Under the pieces are notes generated by a model. The model saw only the letters and a list, made by a program, of their open reading frames with translations. It did not search any database and had not been told where the DNA came from. Positions 18,460 to 46,306 of a DNA stretch of 47,373 nucleotides are shown piece after piece. This DNA is from Acidimicrobiales bacterium. GTDB lineage: Bacteria; Actinomycetota; Acidimicrobiia; Acidimicrobiales; VFJN01. Position 1 is the stretch's first letter. Every line of letters begins with the position of its first letter. The stretch covers positions 1 to 47,373 of the forward strand of contig JAUXRW010000135.1 in the NCBI GenBank assembly GCA_030681555.1, given 5' to 3'. The position numbers and the translations under genes were made by a program.

Positions 18460-18689
18460 CGTGGCGCTCGCCGACTGGCAGCAGATCTCGCCGTCAACCC
18501 GACGGGCACGTCCCGTGTTCGGCTCGGCCAGAACGCCGGGGACCTCGACGGTTACCGGCGCGTCGCTGACGCCGGGGCACGCACCTCATCCCGATGCTGC
18601 GGTACTTCTGCGCCGGCGAGGACGCCGACCACCTGGCCGGCGAGGTCGACGCATCCCGGCTCGCGGACGACGTCATCGCGAAGTGGTGA
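18460..18689 (+). pseudogene. Frameshifted C-terminal remnant, perhaps of an LLM-type oxidoreductase
   Basis: Protein-like sequence runs in one frame as DLAVNPTGTSRVRLGQNAG and DLDGYRRVADAG from 18484. It continues one frame over as THLIPMLRYFCAGEDADHL and ends DASRLADDVIAKW with a TGA at 18687. One missing base near 18577 in a G run explains the break (ADAG.THLIPML). The pattern resembles the C-terminus of luciferase-like oxidoreductases, but this is weak. No start or N-terminal half is seen. The rest of the 407-bp gap from 18309 holds nothing clear. Confidence 0.45.
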
Positions 18690-18715: not shown

Positions 18716-19045
18716 GTGGACGTGCTGCTCGAGGAGCCCCCGGAGGACCCGGGCGACTGGACCGAGGAGCAGTGGCGGGAGTGGCTCACCCAGGCGCCAC
18801 CCGATCCGGACACCGGGCGGGCCCATCCGCTTTCGCGCGCCACGTCCTCCAGCGGCGGCGTCGCCCTCGGGGCGGCGATGCTCGGCCTCCAGCAGGCCAT
18901 CTACGGCGATCGCCCGAAGGTGGAGATCGTGGCCGAGGTGGACGCCGACGGCCTCGACCTGGGCCACATCGAGCTCGACGACGAGGACCCCGGTCTGTCG
19001 CGCGTTCAGCTCGACCATCCCGGCGGGACCTCGCCAACGTTTTGA
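18716..19045 (+). CDS. Acidic small protein, unassigned
   Basis: A 109-residue protein, very acidic, with an N-terminal DWTEEQWREWLTQAPP segment. A central GGVALGAAMLGLQQAIYG could be a short amphipathic helix, and EIVAEVDADGLDLGHIELD follows. Nothing identifies a function. It looks like a genuine gene because of its promoter geometry and regular codon usage. It is followed by the paired hairpin repeats. Confidence 0.6.
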   Translation: MDVLLEEPPEDPGDWTEEQWREWLTQAPPDPDTGRAHPLSRATSSSGGVALGAAMLGLQQAIYGDRPKVEIVAEVDADGLDLGHIELDDEDPGLSRVQLDHPGGTSPTF

Positions 19046-20792: not shown

Positions 20793-22826
20793 ATGACGCC
20801 GCCGCGGGGGCGCGGGATCGGGCTGGCGCTCGCCGGGCTGTCGGTCGTCGCCGCTCTCGCCGCGGTGCCCGCCGCGCAGGGGCGGAGCCCGGCGACGGCC
20901 GCGCCCGCCCAGGTAGCGCCGGCCTGCGCCCCCGGCGGCCCCCCGGTGGCGCACACCGGAGCGGTCGGGCCCGAGGACGCCACGACGTACCGCGTGCTCC
21001 CGTTCGAGGTGGCGCCCGGGACCACTCGGGTGGAGGTGGGCTACTCGTGGACGGACGAGCTGCCGTTGCCCGACGTGCCGGTCGTCAGCGACCTCGTGCA
21101 GACCGTGTTCGACCTCGGCCTGTGGGACGAGGGAGGGGTCGGCACCGTCGAGGGCTTCCGCGGGTGGTCGGGCAGTCGCCAGGGCCGAACCGCCCGTGGC
21201 CAGGACCCCATCTGGGTGCAGGCGGACTCCGCCGACCGCGGCTACCGGCCCGACCCCGTGCGCCCGGGCACGTGGCATGTCGACCTCGGCGTAGCGGCGG
21301 TGGCGCCGCTCGGCGCGACGTACGAGGTGGTGATCCGCTGCCTCGGGCCCGCCGTGGGCGAGCCGTTCGTCGACCAGCCCGTGGACGCCACCCATGTCGC
21401 CGATCCCGACCCCGGCTGGTACTCGGGCGACCTCCACCTGCACGGCTACCACTCCAACCCGAACGCCCCCGATTGGGACGGCGTGGTCGAGTTCGCCCGG
21501 GCCGCCGGCCTCGACTTCCTCCCGATCACGGACTACGTCACCAACCAGCACCACCGGGAGCTCGGACCGGTCCAGGCGGCCAACCCCGATCTGGTGGTCT
21601 GGCCGAGCCGCGAGGTGATCACGTACTTCGGGCACGCCACGGTGTTCGGGGAGACGCCGCATGCAGTGGACTGGCGGCACGGCCACCCGGGCGTGACCCT
21701 CGGTGGCATCCAGGCGGCCAGCGTGGCGGACGGCGCGCTGTTCGGCGTGGCCCACCCGACGATCTTCCCGACGGCCGTGTTCGCCAGCCTCTGCCGGGGG
21801 TGCGAGTTCCGGCTCGGCGGTGCCGTCGACTGGGATGTCGTCGACACGATCGAGGTGATCACGGGCCCGACGATGGTGGACGACAGGCAGCTGGGCGGCC
21901 CCGGCCTCGGCGTTCAGATCCAGAACCCCTTCATCCTCACCGCCCTCGAGCTGTGGCAGCGCCTCCTCCGCGAAGGGCACAAGATCACGGCGGTCTCCGG
22001 GAGCGACGACAAGCTCGGTCCCGGCTACGGCACCACGGTGACTGAGGTGTACGCGGAGCAGCTCTCGCGCCCCGCGCTGGCCGACGCCCTGCGCGCCGGG
22101 CACGCATACATCCGCGCGCTCGGGGCGCAGGCCAGCCCGACCGTCGAGATGACGGCGGTGACCGCGGACGGCCAGCGCGGCATGTTCGGCGACGTGCTCC
22201 ACGCCGACAGCGCCACCGTCCGCGTGCGGGTCCGTGGCGCTGCCGGCCAGGCCTTGCACGTGTCCCGGGACGGGCTCCCCGCCGACATCGTGCCCATCCC
22301 CTCCGACGACGTCACCCACACCTTCGTCGCGACCCGATCGCCCGGTTCCGGCCCGCTGGGCACCTTCTGGCGGGTCGACACCGTCGACCTCCGCTCGATC
22401 ACGACCATCGGCAACCCGATCTTCCTGGCCGGCGCGGGCGCCGGCGCCGGGCCCCCGACCGCGAGCCCCACGTGGCCGTCGCCGGCAGGCGAGGAGCGCG
22501 GGGGCGTGCTTCCCAAGACCGGCGGTGGCGGCGGGTCCGCCCTGCCGCTGGTGCTGGCGCCACTGGTGCTGCTCGCCGCCGTCCTGCACCGCATGGGCCG
22601 TTCCCCCGCCGGCGGCGCCGCTAACGTGCCGCGCCTGCCGCCGCAGAGCGAAGGAGAAGGCTTGCTGGCGTTGGGTCGGGCCTGGAGCAAGGCGGCGCGG
22701 CTGCGCATCGCAACCGTGCCCGGGCCGCATCACCGGACGAGTGGGAGGCCGGCCGCCTCGCGCGGGTCCGGGACCATGCCCGGTCGTACCAGCCTGTCGC
22801 GCAGATGTTCTCGACGGCGGCGTTGA
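20793..22826 (+). CDS. Secreted PHP/CehA-McbA-like metallohydrolase with LPKTG motif
   Basis: The 677-residue frame begins with an export signal (LALAGLSVVAALAAVPAAQG). A beta-rich N-terminal domain comes next. A PHP-type metal site follows: GDLHLHGYHSN (His215, His217), LPITDYVTNQHH, GVAHPT and VSGSDDKLG. These resemble CehA/McbA-family phosphoesterases. Near the C-terminus LPKTG (573-577) is followed by a hydrophobic stretch and HRMGR, the layout of a sortase-anchored protein. About 70 further residues after this have poor composition (Arg/Ser-rich end), so the natural stop has probably been lost. No sortase gene is in the window. Export and PHP fold are likely; the substrate is unknown. 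Confidence 0.78.
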   Translation: MTPPRGRGIGLALAGLSVVAALAAVPAAQGRSPATAAPAQVAPACAPGGPPVAHTGAVGPEDATTYRVLPFEVAPGTTRVEVGYSWTDELPLPDVPVVSDLVQTVFDLGLWDEGGVGTVEGFRGWSGSRQGRTARGQDPIWVQADSADRGYRPDPVRPGTWHVDLGVAAVAPLGATYEVVIRCLGPAVGEPFVDQPVDATHVADPDPGWYSGDLHLHGYHSNPNAPDWDGVVEFARAAGLDFLPITDYVTNQHHRELGPVQAANPDLVVWPSREVITYFGHATVFGETPHAVDWRHGHPGVTLGGIQAASVADGALFGVAHPTIFPTAVFASLCRGCEFRLGGAVDWDVVDTIEVITGPTMVDDRQLGGPGLGVQIQNPFILTALELWQRLLREGHKITAVSGSDDKLGPGYGTTVTEVYAEQLSRPALADALRAGHAYIRALGAQASPTVEMTAVTADGQRGMFGDVLHADSATVRVRVRGAAGQALHVSRDGLPADIVPIPSDDVTHTFVATRSPGSGPLGTFWRVDTVDLRSITTIGNPIFLAGAGAGAGPPTASPTWPSPAGEERGGVLPKTGGGGGSALPLVLAPLVLLAAVLHRMGRSPAGGAANVPRLPPQSEGEGLLALGRAWSKAARLRIATVPGPHHRTSGRPAASRGSGTMPGRTSLSRRCSRRRR

Positions 22827-22887
22827 GCGCGGTGCGAGGCGCCAGCTCGGCCAGGCCGAGGTCCTGGACGACGGGGAGCCCAAGCTG
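22762..22887 (-). pseudogene. Coding-like minus-strand remnant, unassigned
   Basis: In one minus-strand frame the gap reads QLGLPVVQDLGLAELAPRTA then LNAAVENICATGWYDRAWSR, much more protein-like than the other frames. It has no start codon of its own and runs into Arg-rich nonsense. It partly overlaps the degraded tail of the PHP gene on the other strand. Family unknown. Confidence 0.3.
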
Positions 22888-22944
22888 GGGTGGACCCCTC
22901 GCCGTGCCAGAGACCGCCGGCCAGCTCGAGGAGGTCGGTCGCCG

Positions 22945-23946
22945 CTACTCGGCCAACCCGACCGGTTGCCCGTCGACCAACTGGTCGAGGTACTCCGAGA
23001 GGCCGTAGCCCGTGCGGCCGTCGTCGAGGCTCCACTCGGTCATGCCCTCGGAGATGCGGGTGACGAGCTGGTTGCCCTCGGGGTCTCGGCGGCGGTTGCG
23101 CAGCGGGATCAGGTCGAGCACCTTCCCCGTGACCTTCCACTCCCGCTCGCCCGAGCGCAGTGTGGCGCGGATCGCTCGGTGGTACCGGTCGCCGTCGGTC
23201 CACTCGGTCGCGATCTCGAGGTTGTCGCACACGTGGAGCTGCCCGTCCTCCCAGACGAACCCACCCCGGGTGCCAGCGCCCTCGCGCCGCGCGATGCGGG
23301 AGCCCATGAACCCGAAGTCCGCACCGAAGTTGGCCGTCAGCCAGCGGTAGTACCAGGGCGCCTGCCAGTAGCGGGGCCCCCACGAGTGGTCCCGGAGGCC
23401 GTGGCCGGCGACCTCCCACTCCTCGTCCCCGACGCGGATCGTGCCCCGCCCGGCGATCAGCTGCTCGTAGTGCCCCTTGGCGAACTCCTCGCCCGGCTTC
23501 TCGTGGGAGGTCTCGGGTTCGCCCCCGAACATGGCCGACGCGCCGGTGTACTCGATCCGCACCTCGCACTCGGCGTACGGGTTCTCGCTGAAGGCCCGCT
23601 TCGGGTTCGCCATCTGGAGCGGGTCGTCGAGGACCACGACCTTGCCCGTGTAGCGCACGTCGAGGCGCTCGAAGGGCGTGACCACGTCGAAGCGGATGCC
23701 GCCGGCGTCGAAGGCGTCGTTGCTCGAGATCTCGGGGCGCTTGTACATGAAGGCCACCCGGCCGCCCGGCAGGTAGATGCACACGGTCATCTCCGCGTAG
23801 CCCTCGTTGGCGCGGTTGCCGCACCGGAACCAGCCTCCGACGCCGTGGATGGGGTCGTAGAGGTTGAAGTACATGCTCTCGTTGAAGTTCGCTTCCGGGC
23901 CGAGCTCGTGCATGTACTCGTCGATCGGTTCCAGTCGCAGCGCCAT
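22945..23946 (-). CDS. Lipocalin-like (CrtC/AttH-type, DUF7064/7065-like) protein
   Basis: This 333-residue protein is rich in aromatic residues. It begins NFNESMYFNLYDPIHGVGGW, then RANEGYAEMTVCIYLPGGRV, and near residue 190 has GHGLRDHSWGPRYWQAPWYY. The DHSWGPR and WYYRWLTANFG parts recall hydroxyneurosporene hydratase/AttH-like double lipocalins, which actinobacteria often encode near lipid or steroid genes. Enzymatic activity is uncertain. ATG 23946 has a leaderless-type -10, and a perfect 14-bp palindrome lies immediately upstream of that, so it is probably controlled by a TetR-type repressor. Confidence 0.72.
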   Translation of the reverse strand: MALRLEPIDEYMHELGPEANFNESMYFNLYDPIHGVGGWFRCGNRANEGYAEMTVCIYLPGGRVAFMYKRPEISSNDAFDAGGIRFDVVTPFERLDVRYTGKVVVLDDPLQMANPKRAFSENPYAECEVRIEYTGASAMFGGEPETSHEKPGEEFAKGHYEQLIAGRGTIRVGDEEWEVAGHGLRDHSWGPRYWQAPWYYRWLTANFGADFGFMGSRIARREGAGTRGGFVWEDGQLHVCDNLEIATEWTDGDRYHRAIRATLRSGEREWKVTGKVLDLIPLRNRRRDPEGNQLVTRISEGMTEWSLDDGRTGYGLSEYLDQLVDGQPVGLAE

Positions 23947-23974: not shown

Positions 23975-24472
23975 AGTGTGGGCGAGCTCCAGCGCAGCGC
24001 GCAGGTGGGCGATCAGCGCGTCGAGGCCCGTGGCGGCGTTGAGCCCACTCGTCGACGGCATGAGGTAGACGGGCCGCCCGCCGAGCCGTGGCTCCTGCGG
24101 ACCCGCCACCGCGGTGCGGTCGACGGCCTTGCGCCACCCCGCGAGCCCGACGATGCACACGGCACCGGGCTGCCACCGCCGGCACAGCCGGTCGAGCCGG
24201 TCGACGCCGGAGCCGTACTCCGCAGCGGTGAGCCTGTCGGCCCGGGGCGAGGCGCGAGCGACGAGGTCCGTGAAGCCGACGCCGTCGACCTCGAGGGCGT
24301 GCCGGGGATCGCGGTCGGCGGTGACGAGCCCGGCAGCCAGCGCTGCAGGCCAGAACCGGTTGCCCGGCGTGACGTAGCCCACCCCGGCCTTCGCCGCGTG
24401 GAGGCTGGGGTTGAGCCCGCACACCAGCAGCCGCATGCCCGGTCCGACGACGTCGGGCAGCGGGCGCCTCAC
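23972..24472 (-). CDS. mug: Mug-type G/T(U)-mismatch DNA glycosylase
   Basis: A 166-residue uracil-DNA-glycosylase-fold protein that should remove uracil or thymine from G mismatches. It opens PLPDVVGPGMRLLVCGLNPS, with the GLNP motif (19-22) typical of Mug. Later motifs are GNRFWPAALAAG, GFTDLVARASPRADRL and MPSTSGLNA. GTG 24472 overlaps the stop of the preceding gene by 4 nt (GTGA) and gives the canonical N-terminus. The position after a DNA-binding-like small protein and next to LLM genes suggests no special pathway beyond base excision repair. Confidence 0.85.
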   Translation of the reverse strand: MRRPLPDVVGPGMRLLVCGLNPSLHAAKAGVGYVTPGNRFWPAALAAGLVTADRDPRHALEVDGVGFTDLVARASPRADRLTAAEYGSGVDRLDRLCRRWQPGAVCIVGLAGWRKAVDRTAVAGPQEPRLGGRPVYLMPSTSGLNAATGLDALIAHLRAALELAHT

Positions 24473-42137: not shown

Positions 42138-42273
42138 GGGGGCACAACCCTCGCACGTCCGGCCACCGTCGTGGAACTCGCCGGCCACCGGCCGAGCAGA
42201 GATTTCGCCCGACGCGCGATCGTGCGCTAGACGAGGACACCACTGGTCGTCGCACATGGGGAGAAGTACGCGC

Positions 42274-43179
42274 ATGAGCAAGCTCTGCGAAGGGCGGGTC
42301 GCCGTCATCACGGGGGCCGGCCGCGGGATCGGGCGCGAATACGCGCTCCTGCTCGCCCACCACGGCGCCAAGGTCGTCGTGAACGACCTGGGGGCGGCTC
42401 GGGACGGGGAAGGGGCCGACGTCGGCCCTGCCCAGGAGGTCGTCGACGAGGTCGTGGCCGCCGGTGGCGAGGCCATCGTGAACGGTGACGACGTCAGCGA
42501 CTTCGAGGGCGCCGAGCGGATGATCCGGTCGGCGATCGACACCTTCGGCGGGTTGGACATCCTGATCAACAACGCAGGGATCCTCCGCGACCGCATGCTC
42601 ACGAACATGACGGAGGCGGAGTGGGACGCCGTCATCAAGGTGCACCTCAAGGGCACCTTCGCCCCGGCGCGGCACGCTGCGGCCTATTGGCGTGAGCGGT
42701 CGAAGGCGGGCGAGACCAACGACGCCCGGATCATCAACACCTCGTCGCCCTCCGGCCTTTACGGCAACGTCGGCCAGACGAACTACGGCGCTGCGAAGGC
42801 CGGCATCGCGAGCTTCACGATCATCGCCGCCAAGGAGCTGAGCCGGTACGGCGTCACCGTCAACGGCATCGCCCCGGCCGCCCTCACCCGCCTCACCGAG
42901 GACCTCGGGATGGGCTCGGCCGACGAGGCCACGAAGGAAGCCATGTCCCCGGCCCACATCGCACCGATCGTGGCGTGGCTGTCCAGTCCCGAGTCCGCCC
43001 ACGTCACCGGGCGCTTGTTCGACGTGAGCGGCCGCATGATCTCGGTGAGCGAGGGTTGGCACCGCGGCCCGACGCTCGAGAACCCCACAGACGACGTCGC
43101 CGAGCTGGGGCCGCAGGTGTCCGAGCTCGTGGCCAAGGCCCGGCCCAACGCCAACATGTTCGGCTTCGACGAGTCGTAG
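42274..43179 (+). CDS. Short-chain dehydrogenase (MFE-2-like 3-hydroxyacyl-CoA dehydrogenase type)
   Basis: A 301-residue SDR. NAD binding: VITGAGRGIGREYAL (12-26), VVVNDLG, NNAG (99-102). Active site: NTSSPSG (Ser157-158), Tyr171 and Lys175 in NYGAAKAG. The extended VVVNDLGAARDGEGADVG is the style of peroxisomal-type multifunctional enzyme 2 dehydrogenases, which oxidise 3-hydroxyacyl-CoA in fatty acid or steroid degradation. ATG 42274 follows GGGGAGAA. A MaoC-type dehydratase remnant lies right after, which supports an original hydratase/dehydrogenase pair. Confidence 0.9.
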   Translation: MSKLCEGRVAVITGAGRGIGREYALLLAHHGAKVVVNDLGAARDGEGADVGPAQEVVDEVVAAGGEAIVNGDDVSDFEGAERMIRSAIDTFGGLDILINNAGILRDRMLTNMTEAEWDAVIKVHLKGTFAPARHAAAYWRERSKAGETNDARIINTSSPSGLYGNVGQTNYGAAKAGIASFTIIAAKELSRYGVTVNGIAPAALTRLTEDLGMGSADEATKEAMSPAHIAPIVAWLSSPESAHVTGRLFDVSGRMISVSEGWHRGPTLENPTDDVAELGPQVSELVAKARPNANMFGFDES

Positions 43180-43222
43180 TCCGACCGCCCGTCCCGGCCA
43201 CCGACCAGGAGACCCACCACCC

Positions 43223-43355
43223 CGGTTCTCCTCGCCCGTCATGCCGGGGGAGGAGCTGACCGTGAAGGCCTGGACCGCCGGCGACGGTCTTCCAGAGGCT
43301 CGGCGGTGACGGTCGGGTCGTCATCGACGCCGGGCGCGTCACCTACACCGCGTAG
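43223..43355 (+). pseudogene. C-terminal remnant of a MaoC-like (R)-enoyl-CoA hydratase
   Basis: RFSSPVMPGEELTVKAWTAG is read from 43223, the hot-dog-fold motif of MaoC dehydratases. After a frameshift near 43283 the frame TVFQRLGGDGRVVIDAG then RVTYTA ends at TAG 43353. The catalytic His region is missing, so only the last 40 or so residues survive. It follows the SDR by 43 nt and shows that a hydratase gene was deleted here. Confidence 0.68.
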
Positions 43356-43358
43356 CTC

Positions 43359-44018
43359 TCAGAACAGCGAGGTCTGCGCCCGCTCGATCCCGCGCAGCGC
43401 GTCGTAGTCGACCTCGACGCAGATGATCCCGCGCTCCGCGGCCAGGGTCTTGGCCTGCGGCTTGATGACCTGGGCCACGAACATGCCCCGGACCGGCCGG
43501 AGCGCGGGGTCGCGCTCCATGAACTCGAGGTAGCGCACCAGCTGTTCCACGCCGTCGATCTCCCCGCGCCGCTTGATCTCGATGGCGACGGCGCGGCCCG
43601 ACGCATCACGGCACAGGAGGTCGACCGGCCCGATCTCGGTGCGGTGCTCCCGGCGGACGAGGATCATGCCGTCCTCCAGCGTGTGGCAGGCGCCGGCGAG
43701 CAGCTCCTGGAGGTGCGCCTCCACCCCGTCCTTCTGCAGGCCTGGATCGACGCCGAGCTCGTGGCTCGAGTCGGACAGCACCTCGTCGATGGTGATGATC
43801 AGCTGCTCGCCCTTGGGGTTGGTGACCATCCACCGGCCGGGGGCCTCGACGACGACGTTCGGGCTGTTCATCCAGTTCAGCGGCTTGTACGCGCCGCCGT
43901 CGGCGTGGATGGCGACGCACCCGTCTCGCTTCACCATGATCAGGCGCGTGGCCATTGGGAGGTGCGCGCTGAGCCGGCCCTCGTAGTCGACCGCGCAACG
44001 GGCGATGACGAGCCGCAC
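43359..44018 (-). CDS. nucS: Mismatch-specific endonuclease NucS (EndoMS)
   Basis: A 219-residue nuclease that makes double-strand cuts at mismatches. It provides the non-canonical mismatch repair of actinobacteria lacking MutS/MutL. The N-terminal DNA-binding part has [21 protein letters not shown]. The RecB-like catalytic part has GPVDLLCRD (Asp133), [20 protein letters not shown] (Glu147, Lys149). It ends QTSLF (215-219), a good match to the beta-clamp-binding motif. GTG 44018 lies 4 nt after the ABC1-kinase fragment. Confidence 0.93.
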
Positions 44019-44022
44019 GCGT

Positions 44023-44454
44023 CTACCGGCCCCGGCGCTGCAGGCGGCTCACCTGATCGCGGCACCTCGTGAACTCGGTGACAGACTCGGGCGGGGAGAT
44101 GCCCTCGCCCGAGGACAGGATCTGGCCGAGCTTGACGTAGGTGGGCCCGAGCGCCTCGGCCGCGATCCGCAGGCGGCGCGACAGGTCGGCGATGGACTCT
44201 GGACGGCCCCGCCGCCGGGCCCCGACGGCCCACCCCGACAGCGCCCGGCCAAGCCGGGCGGTGGTGCGCACGACGCGCATCCCGGGCGGCACCCGCCCGG
44301 GCCGGACGAGGTCGGGCAGATCCGTCGCGATCTGGCGGCGCAGCCCCGGGACGGCCCCACGCCACGGCATGGCGTCCGGGTCGACGATCCAGGGTCCGTC
44401 GTCGCTGAAGCTGCCGAGGGCGAGGTCGGGCGGGGGTCCCGTGGTGGCGCTCAT
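44023..44454 (-). pseudogene. Truncated ABC1/AarF (UbiB-like) atypical kinase, N-terminal fragment
   Basis: The 143-residue frame ends in the KxGQ region of the ABC1 family, ALGPTYVKLGQILSSGEGIS, and PPESVTEFTRCRDQV. It stops at SRLQRRGR, before the ATP-binding and catalytic parts. Complete members have about 300 more residues. Other frames downstream are occupied by nucS. ATG 44454 overlaps the stop of an enoyl-CoA hydratase fragment (ATGA). The 3' part was probably deleted. Confidence 0.68.
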
Positions 44455-44576
44455 CGCCCGGCGAGTCTGGCAGCAATCCCGCCCCCGCTCAGTAGGCCGT
44501 AGCAGGCGAGGACGATGCCGACGCCCGCCGCCGGGCCGTTGATGGCTGCCAGCACCGGCAGGCGCAGCCGGTAGGC
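44451..44576 (-). pseudogene. Enoyl-CoA hydratase/isomerase fragment
   Basis: The minus strand from about 44576 reads AYRLRLPVLAAINGPAAGVG and IVLACYGLL, the oxyanion-hole region of crotonases (KPVIAAINGPAxGxG). It then runs into SGGGIAARLAGR and a stop at 44451. About 25 residues of a normal 260 remain. It lies between cysQ and the ABC1 fragment. Confidence 0.6.
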
Positions 44577-44593
44577 CCCAGCCGGCGTCCACC

Positions 44594-45346
44594 TCAGCGG
44601 GCGGCGCCAAGCGCGCCGAGCGCCGCTTCGGCCAGCTCGGGCCGACAGATCAGGAGATCCGGCAGCCAGGGGTCGGCCCGGTTGTAGCGCAGCGGGCTGC
44701 CGTCGAGGCGTGTGGCGTGCAGCCCGGCGGCCAGCGCCACCGCGGCCGGCGCCGCGTTGTCCCACTCGTACTGGCCGCCCGCATGGGCGTAGATGTCGAC
44801 GTCGCCGAGCACGACCGCCATCGCCTTCGCGCCTGCGGACCCGAGCGCCACGAGCTCGCCGTCGAGGGCGTCCGCGATCAGCCGCGCCTCCAGCGGCGGC
44901 CGGGTGCGCGACACGACGACGCGCACCGGCCCCGGGGTCCGCTCCGGCACGACCGGGACCGGTACGGACGCGAGCGTGAGTCCGACTGCGGGGAGCGCCA
45001 CCGCGCCCGCCTGCACCACCCCGTCGATGGCCAGGGCCACGTGGACGGCCCAGTCGCTGCGACCGGGCTCGCTGAACTCGCGGGTGCCGTCGAGCGGGTC
45101 GACGATCCAGACACGGGAGCGCTCGAGCCGCCGCAGGTCGTCCCGGCCCTCCTCGGAGAGCACGGCGTCGCCCGGGGCCGCCTCGGCCAGCAGGCGCACG
45201 ATGAGGTCGTGGGCGAGGCGGTCGCCCTCGTCGCCGACGTGGAAGCCGGGCGCGCCGGCCAGATCGCGCCGTACGCCGAGGAGCAGCTCACCGGCCGCGG
45301 TGGCCACCTCGGCGGCCAGCACGTGGTCGGCGGCGGCGGCGGGCAC
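44594..45346 (-). CDS. cysQ: 3'(2'),5'-bisphosphate nucleotidase CysQ
   Basis: A 250-residue inositol-monophosphatase-fold enzyme that removes the 3'-phosphate of PAP or PAPS in the sulfate pathway. It has VLSEEGRDD (Glu65, Glu66), VWIVDPLDGTREF (Asp83, Asp86) and QYEWDNAAPAAVALAAG, the three metal and substrate motifs. It lies divergent from cysD, matching its role in sulfate activation. GTG 45346 has TAAGCA six bases upstream, one mismatch from the leaderless -10. Confidence 0.9.
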   Translation of the reverse strand: MPAAAADHVLAAEVATAAGELLLGVRRDLAGAPGFHVGDEGDRLAHDLIVRLLAEAAPGDAVLSEEGRDDLRRLERSRVWIVDPLDGTREFSEPGRSDWAVHVALAIDGVVQAGAVALPAVGLTLASVPVPVVPERTPGPVRVVVSRTRPPLEARLIADALDGELVALGSAGAKAMAVVLGDVDIYAHAGGQYEWDNAAPAAVALAAGLHATRLDGSPLRYNRADPWLPDLLICRPELAEAALGALGAAR

Positions 45347-45375
45347 GACGATTGCTTACCAGTTCGCTCAGGATT

Positions 45376-45381
45376 TACCCT
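45376..45381 (+). promoter_or_regulatory. Candidate -10 (TACCCT) for cysDN
   Basis: TACCCT lies 10 nt before ATG 45392, so any leader is only a few bases. The 45-bp gap also holds the cysQ promoter. Confidence 0.45.
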
Positions 45382-45391
45382 GATCGGTCCC

Positions 45392-46306
45392 ATGCCCGAC
45401 ACCGCCTACGAGCTCTCGCACCTCCGCGCGCTGGAGGCCGAGGCGATCCACATCATCCGGGAGGTCGCCGCCGAGTTCGAGCGCCCCGGCCTGCTGTTCT
45501 CCGGGGGCAAGGACTCCATCGTCATGCTCCACCTGGCGGTCAAGGCCTTCAGCCCCGCGAAGGTGCCGTTCCCGGTCATGCATGTCGACACCGGCGAGAA
45601 CTTCGACGAGGTCCTGGCGTTCCGGGACGAGATGGTGCACCGGGTCGGCGCCCGCTTGATCGTCGCCAGCGTGCAAGACGACATCGACGCCGGCACCTCG
45701 GTCGAGGACATGGGCCCTCGGGCCACCCGCAACCGACTCCAGACGGCCACGCTGCTGCGGGCCATCGAGGAACAGCGCTTCGACGCCGTGTTCGGCGGCG
45801 CCCGCCGGGACGAGGAGAAGGCCCGGGCCAAGGAGCGGGTCTTCAGTTTCCGCGACGAGTTCGGGCAGTGGGACCCGAAGAACCAGCGACCGGAGCTCTG
45901 GAACCTCTACAACGGCCGGGTCCGGAAGGGAGAGCACATCCGCGTGTTCCCCCTGTCCAACTGGACCGAGCTCGACATCTGGCAGTACATCGCCGAGGAG
46001 CAGATCGCGTTGCCGGCGATCTACTTCGCCCACCAGCGCAAGGTGTTCCGGCGCGACGACATGTGGCTGGCCGACACCAAGTTCATCACCCTGCTGGAGG
46101 GCGAGGAGATCGTCGAGAAGCAGGTGCGCTTCCGCACCGTGGGAGACGCCACCTGCACCGGCGCCGTGGAGTCCGATGCCGCCACCCTCGAGGACGTGAT
46201 CGCCGAGGTCGCCGCCACCCGGATCACCGAGCGCGGCGCGACCCGGGCCGACGACCGCATCAGCGAGTCCGGCATGGAAGACCGCAAGCGCGAGGGCTAC
46301 TTCTGA
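45392..46306 (+). CDS. cysD: Sulfate adenylyltransferase subunit 2 (CysD)
   Basis: A 304-residue PP-loop ATPase; with CysN it forms adenosine 5'-phosphosulfate from sulfate and ATP. The PP-loop is LLFSGGKDSIVML (Ser37-Ser42), followed by PVMHVDTGENF, GGARRDEEKARAKER and WDPKNQRPELWNLYNGR. IRVFPLSNWTELDIWQYIAEE and EDRKREGYF end it. Length is normal. The stop TGA shares its A with the ATG of the following tiny ORF. Confidence 0.96.
   Translation: MPDTAYELSHLRALEAEAIHIIREVAAEFERPGLLFSGGKDSIVMLHLAVKAFSPAKVPFPVMHVDTGENFDEVLAFRDEMVHRVGARLIVASVQDDIDAGTSVEDMGPRATRNRLQTATLLRAIEEQRFDAVFGGARRDEEKARAKERVFSFRDEFGQWDPKNQRPELWNLYNGRVRKGEHIRVFPLSNWTELDIWQYIAEEQIALPAIYFAHQRKVFRRDDMWLADTKFITLLEGEEIVEKQVRFRTVGDATCTGAVESDAATLEDVIAEVAATRITERGATRADDRISESGMEDRKREGYF

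Follow-up and report, generated by a model that had tools for sequence, protein, structure and literature searches.

The window analyzed in this work is the complete 47,373-bp contig C110 of genome G000, and all coordinates given below refer to it. G000 consists of 3.28 Mb distributed in 162 contigs, with estimates of 98.23% completeness and 2.35% contamination. Its best matches among named records come mostly from Acidimicrobiia or other Actinomycetota, and we take G000 to belong to the Acidimicrobiia. The main comparisons were made with the loci L028 to L030 of G001, G002 and G003, three genomes of the same genus that will be referred to as the congeners. All three congeners share the gene order cysD, cysQ, an ABC1 gene coding for 526-530 amino acids, nucS, a MaoC-like dehydratase gene and a short-chain dehydrogenase (SDR) gene, and this order is collinear with the window. 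The features found in this part of the window are the following:

44594 to 45346, minus strand: cysQ-like gene of the inositol-phosphatase family, intact
44491 to 44577, minus strand, approximate limits: remnant of a crotonase (enoyl-CoA hydratase-like) gene, about 28 codons of the gene core; its frame ends at the TGA at 44453-44451
44023 to 44454, minus strand: ABC1/UbiB-like kinase gene, its middle very probably deleted in frame; 143 amino acids comprising the N-terminus to residue 135 including KLGQ, one junction residue, and the native C-terminus as residues 137-143
44026 to 44046, minus strand: native end of the ABC1 gene, last seven codons (RLQRRGR) followed by TAG, with the deletion junction immediately before
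43359 to 44018, minus strand: nucS, intact, 219 amino acids, GTG start; NF002876 match of 350 bits, cut-off 252
43222 to 43355, plus strand: remnant of the C-terminal end of a MaoC-like dehydratase gene, lying in two frames and flanked by the SDR gene and nucS
42283 to 43179, plus strand: SDR gene, intact, collinear with the congeners

Thus both flanks of nucS are decayed and nucS, cysQ and the SDR gene are whole. The MaoC-like remnant, on the other side of nucS, is a third one in addition to the two described in the earlier note.

The minus-strand ORF that starts with the ATG at 44454 and ends with the TAG at 44023 has 143 codons and is separated by 4 nt from the GTG of nucS at 44018, a gap that is found in all four members of the genus. 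These limits and spacing, together with the ATGA in which the TGA of the crotonase frame overlaps the ABC1 ATG, had been noticed before and were confirmed on the minus strand. The interval between cysQ and nucS, which the earlier note had suggested comparing with relatives, includes in all three congeners a full-length ABC1 orthologue in the corresponding place, directly before nucS. In a translated comparison residues 10-135 of the fragment and residues 9-134 of a congener protein are identical at 88 of 126 positions, a similarity far above chance. The last seven residues preceding the stop codon are RLQRRGR in the fragment and RLQRRGQ in the congener. When the congener C-terminus was compared with the 1084 seven-codon stretches preceding a stop codon on either strand of the window, six of seven positions matched in a single one, the end of the ABC1 frame, and the next best were three stretches with four matches. 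When the window DNA is aligned to the three congeners one by one, there is a single break point: window bases down to 44045-44046 align to the N-terminal coding part and the next bases align to the very end of the gene and to nucS. In the alignment with L029, the break falls between bases 2355 and 2356 of the reversed stretch, which correspond to L029 bases 4963 and 6124, 1161 bases apart. Since the net loss relative to the congener is 1161 nt, or 387 codons, the deletion is in frame, as an arbitrary deletion is one time in three. The 143-codon frame can be considered, with good confidence, as a deletion remnant: a single ABC1/UbiB-type kinase gene from which one internal deletion removed a segment in frame, joining codon 135 or thereabouts to the last seven codons. 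The proposal that the ABC1 gene stops after the KxGQ region was correct in that the kinase core is absent but not as to the end of the frame, because the last seven codons and the stop are the native end of the gene.

The family profile PF03109 matches residues 130-372 of the congener protein with 205.6 bits, and no match to PF03109 or any other Pfam family was found in the fragment up to an E value of 1. TIGR01982 matches the fragment partially (34.1 bits, cut-off 487.55), the full congener gene being also below this cut-off (301.7 bits). The KxGQ motif is present as KLGQ at residues 108-111 of the fragment, with K and Q invariant in an alignment of 30 rows. Compared with the copy of this atypical kinase family that lies beside nucS in Acidimicrobiia, the fragment has in common the N-terminal part to residue 135 with KLGQ, the native last seven residues and the chromosomal place, but it lacks the kinase domain. 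The deleted part includes the columns at congener residues 167-190 and 323-345, which we take to be the Ala-rich loop, the catalytic lysine, HGD and the DFG-type site. We know of no function for a KxGQ extension without its partner domain. The motif names were drawn partly from a study of the human relative ADCK3, in which the KxGQ extension is described as occluding the active site by folding into it (PMC4718504). This behavior is one of the reasons to consider that a KxGQ N-terminal extension could still be made as a short protein, acting alone or on another ABC1 kinase. The structure model of the fragment is in part compatible with this idea as it includes five predicted helices with a mean pLDDT of 72.8, but its pTM is 0.39 compared with 0.88 for the model of the full congener protein (mean pLDDT 87.5). 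A search of solved structures returned chains of the ABC1 family, COQ8A and COQ8B among them, and, less strongly, ordinary protein kinases. If made, the 143-residue product would consist of the N-terminal KxGQ helices without a kinase core and probably have no function.

The crotonase stretch matches PF00378 with an E value of 0.037 (13.8 bits, cut-off 27), and is 60.7% identical over 28 residues to the crotonase encoded upstream of ABC1 in a relative (E 4e-7). A full crotonase gene lies upstream of ABC1 in 3 of 13 stretches from relatives (G029, G012 and G019); none of the three congeners has one there. The crotonase piece is a relic of a different gene belonging to the same locus. Both this short match and the full-length genes of the relatives agree with the earlier view that the crotonase and ABC1 pieces are remnants. 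That note had also described them as two truncated genes fused end to end. The ATGA overlap on which the idea rests is real, but the two frames differ, so that no fusion protein would result; in addition, the ABC1 C-terminus is native and a crotonase was already upstream of ABC1 at the locus in the relatives mentioned. A new gene generated by the fusion of two unrelated truncated genes is consequently hardly credible, and the ABC1 frame is better described as one gene with an internal in-frame deletion. In the cysQ-ABC1 interval of the three congeners, where other relatives have the crotonase gene, there is an ORF of 781-803 residues on the opposite strand that by eye looks GGDEF/EAL-like. As for the MaoC-like remnant, about 238 codons are missing from its start relative to the gene, which is full in the three congeners, and inspection by eye indicated that its frame is shifted by a net loss of 8 nt with respect to a congener.

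The 143 residues were searched in 298 genomes of the order, and 200 of these had matches at E ≤ 1e-18. Among the matches listed the only open frames shorter than 400 amino acids were those of G000 (208), G154 (200), G207 (329) and G220 (361). The remainder of the G154 gene begins at base 1 of another contig, and the matches in G207 and G220 are too close to the contig start to hold the rest of the gene; these three short frames would then represent contig ends. In a set of 41 relatives, a match at E ≤ 0.001 was obtained for 35, including a weak one with a frame of 82 residues (G004:C49, E 5e-4). Homologues of exactly the same length, which the earlier note had named as the sign of a real short protein, were looked for, and no conserved homologue of this short length was found among the matches listed in the 298-genome search or in the 41 relatives, which argues against a retained short protein. 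At E ≤ 1e-90, a threshold unable to show fragments, a search with the full protein detected it in 177 of 248 genomes.

The phylogenetic tree and the column counts were based on 48 rows, from which duplicate retrievals of a locus, the distant loci L076-L124 and L070, a short sequence whose match starts at a contig edge, had been left out. In the tree the fragment clusters with the three congeners with support 100/98. Rates were compared using trees of the N-terminal 127 residues, nucS, cysQ and cysD. For the N-terminal 127 residues, the window lies at distances of 0.77-1.30 from the outgroups and the three congeners at 0.80-1.46, indicating no acceleration, and the third-position GC of the fragment (0.938) is in line with that of nucS (0.959) and cysQ (0.936). 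The fragment departs at 2 of 41 conserved columns, by F120S and L124S, both near the junction; more of these columns are changed in 14 of 47 relatives. Beyond the deletion and these two substitutions there is no sign of lost function, and this pattern would be the same for a very recent deletion, an assembly error and a retained short protein. The simplest reading of an N-terminal part that is not accelerated is that the deletion is recent, and we consider this to be probably the case for the ABC1 gene. An open frame with normal codon positions and no acceleration would also be expected of a short protein still in use, but the recent deletion accounts for the missing acceleration, and position 120, occupied by F in all 47 relatives, is S in the fragment. 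Taken together with the structural features and the homologue counts, a retained short protein seems very unlikely.

Other homologues of the lost genes are present in G000. Contig C135 includes a full second ABC1 gene coding for 524 amino acids (60% identity to the congener gene), and C151 a piece of a third one that is cut by the contig end (62%). These two are 77% identical to each other and in our reading would belong to another subfamily. In a midpoint-rooted tree the C135 ABC1 splits from 46 other rows with support 100/97. Relocation of the missing middle elsewhere in G000 was rejected, as the best matches to the full congener gene were these C135 and C151 sequences at only 60-62%. At E ≤ 1e-20 there are 14 ABC1 matches in G000, counting the fragment, located on contigs C135, C16, C3, C36, C116, C80, C147, C151 and the window, versus 2 in each congener; three other genomes of the family have 3, 5 and 3. 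Two of the G000 matches (L031 and L136) are near genes that, judging from their sequence, look like those of flavin monooxygenases. Each congener has one ABC1 match of comparable score and one MaoC match, both at the locus, and in G000 there are two full MaoC homologues (58% and 48%), with 1, 5 and 2 MaoC matches in the other genomes of the family. The additional ABC1 and MaoC copies are located on other contigs of a bin with an estimated contamination of 2.35%, and could stem from such contamination. The TETRA correlation of C135 to the window (0.79-0.88) does not decide its origin, since two other genomes of the family also score 0.84-0.86; the other sampled contigs range from 0.755 to 0.924 and C151 has a value of 0.55. 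As all seven genomes have numerous crotonase matches (20-58), redundancy says nothing for this gene. The high number of ABC1 matches in G000 is a point in favor of a retained short protein. A more specific version, the conversion in one step of the kinase gene to a stand-alone regulatory KxGQ domain that is made from the nucS transcript and acts in trans on the other ABC1 kinases of G000 that the congeners lack, is in our opinion extremely unlikely.

Gene loss in the window extends beyond this locus. A simple script was used to pick 47 genes from the part of G003 that is collinear with the window. Of these, 29 are full in the window (a class that includes at least two matches to paralogues only), 8 are partial and 10 are absent. 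By our own reading the eight partial genes comprise five remnants in place, one gene with a missing domain, and two that are not remnants, one being a match to a paralogue and the other an antisense-type frame. The five remnants are those of ABC1, MaoC, the N-terminus of a metallo-β-lactamase-fold-like (MBL-type) gene, the C-terminus of a methyltransferase gene and the C-terminus of an LLM-type gene, the last three names being read from the sequence, and those of MaoC, MBL and LLM are each in two frames. The partial genes located away from nucS are:

18529-18686 and 18836-19012, plus strand: remnant of an LLM-type oxidoreductase gene in two frames and the adjacent methyltransferase C-terminus remnant, both full in G003
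22798-22948, minus strand: metallo-β-lactamase-fold-like N-terminal remnant in two frames, full in G003
23996-24460, minus strand: C-terminal DNA-glycosylase-like half of a 356-residue G003 protein, the N-terminal methyltransferase-like half being unmatched (names read from the sequence)

In the reverse direction, 36 window genes were found in G003 as 22 full, 4 in part and 10 not at all, and no clear remnants were seen in G003 among them. As a control, 23 of 23 G003 genes are full in G001, although this control is imperfect, the window being much more distant from both genomes than they are from each other.

These losses bear on the possibility that the real genome has a full ABC1 gene whose middle was dropped by the assembler. 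The record is made of 162 contigs, the N-terminal part is as constrained as those of intact genes, and the junction is overlapped by two imperfect repeat pairs, one direct (20 nt, 85%) and one inverted (33 nt, 76%). However, the scan of 42200-45500 that identified them showed many repeats of similar quality elsewhere in this GC-rich stretch. The sequence CGCGATC occurs close to the left end in the window, and close to the right end in two of the three congeners, but it does not coincide with the junction. A congener-like lost middle was not found elsewhere in G000, the crotonase and MaoC genes next door are also decayed, and the partial loss of several other window genes argues against a one-off assembly error. 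We consider an assembly artifact unlikely.

The most likely explanation for the locus is normal gene decay, in which deletions removed dispensable genes but did not reach nucS. The genes of the locus may have become dispensable, perhaps through the other full-length ABC1 and MaoC homologues in the genome. One internal in-frame deletion would have removed nearly all the ABC1 catalytic domain, and most of the crotonase gene and most of the MaoC-like gene would have been lost in the same stretch, in agreement with the earlier estimate that several deletions are needed and that the 143-codon frame is still open. These deletions would have been tolerated while the nucS start region remained, the boundary perhaps being set by the need for nucS expression. 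In Mycobacterium smegmatis the nucS promoter is located within a short gap before the gene, according to a published study (PMC12649562). As the gap is only 4 nt in all four members of the genus, nucS is likely to be expressed from further upstream, a prediction based on gene spacing. The deletion kept the stop codon and the 4-nt gap, so translational coupling of the upstream frame into nucS may be preserved. A scan for promoters and terminators between 43150 and 45400 found no sites of either kind, a result that is uninformative given the GC-rich genome.

The features of the locus are those of bacterial pseudogenes and gene remnants as described in the Pseudofinder report (PMC9336565): a frame much shorter than its orthologues, synteny with the intact gene of relatives, and neighboring remnants without a full frame. 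The ABC1 remnant differs from the pseudogenes described there in that, owing to the in-frame deletion and the native end, its frame is still open, and little or no drift is apparent as yet. It is an ordinary deletion remnant, which is now better explained. The consequence is mainly one for annotation: the 143-residue ORF should be labelled as a remnant of this kind instead of a novel small protein or a fused gene. The locus illustrates neatly how neighbors on both sides of the repair gene nucS can be deleted with nucS and its start region spared, in a genome that holds other homologues of two of the lost genes.
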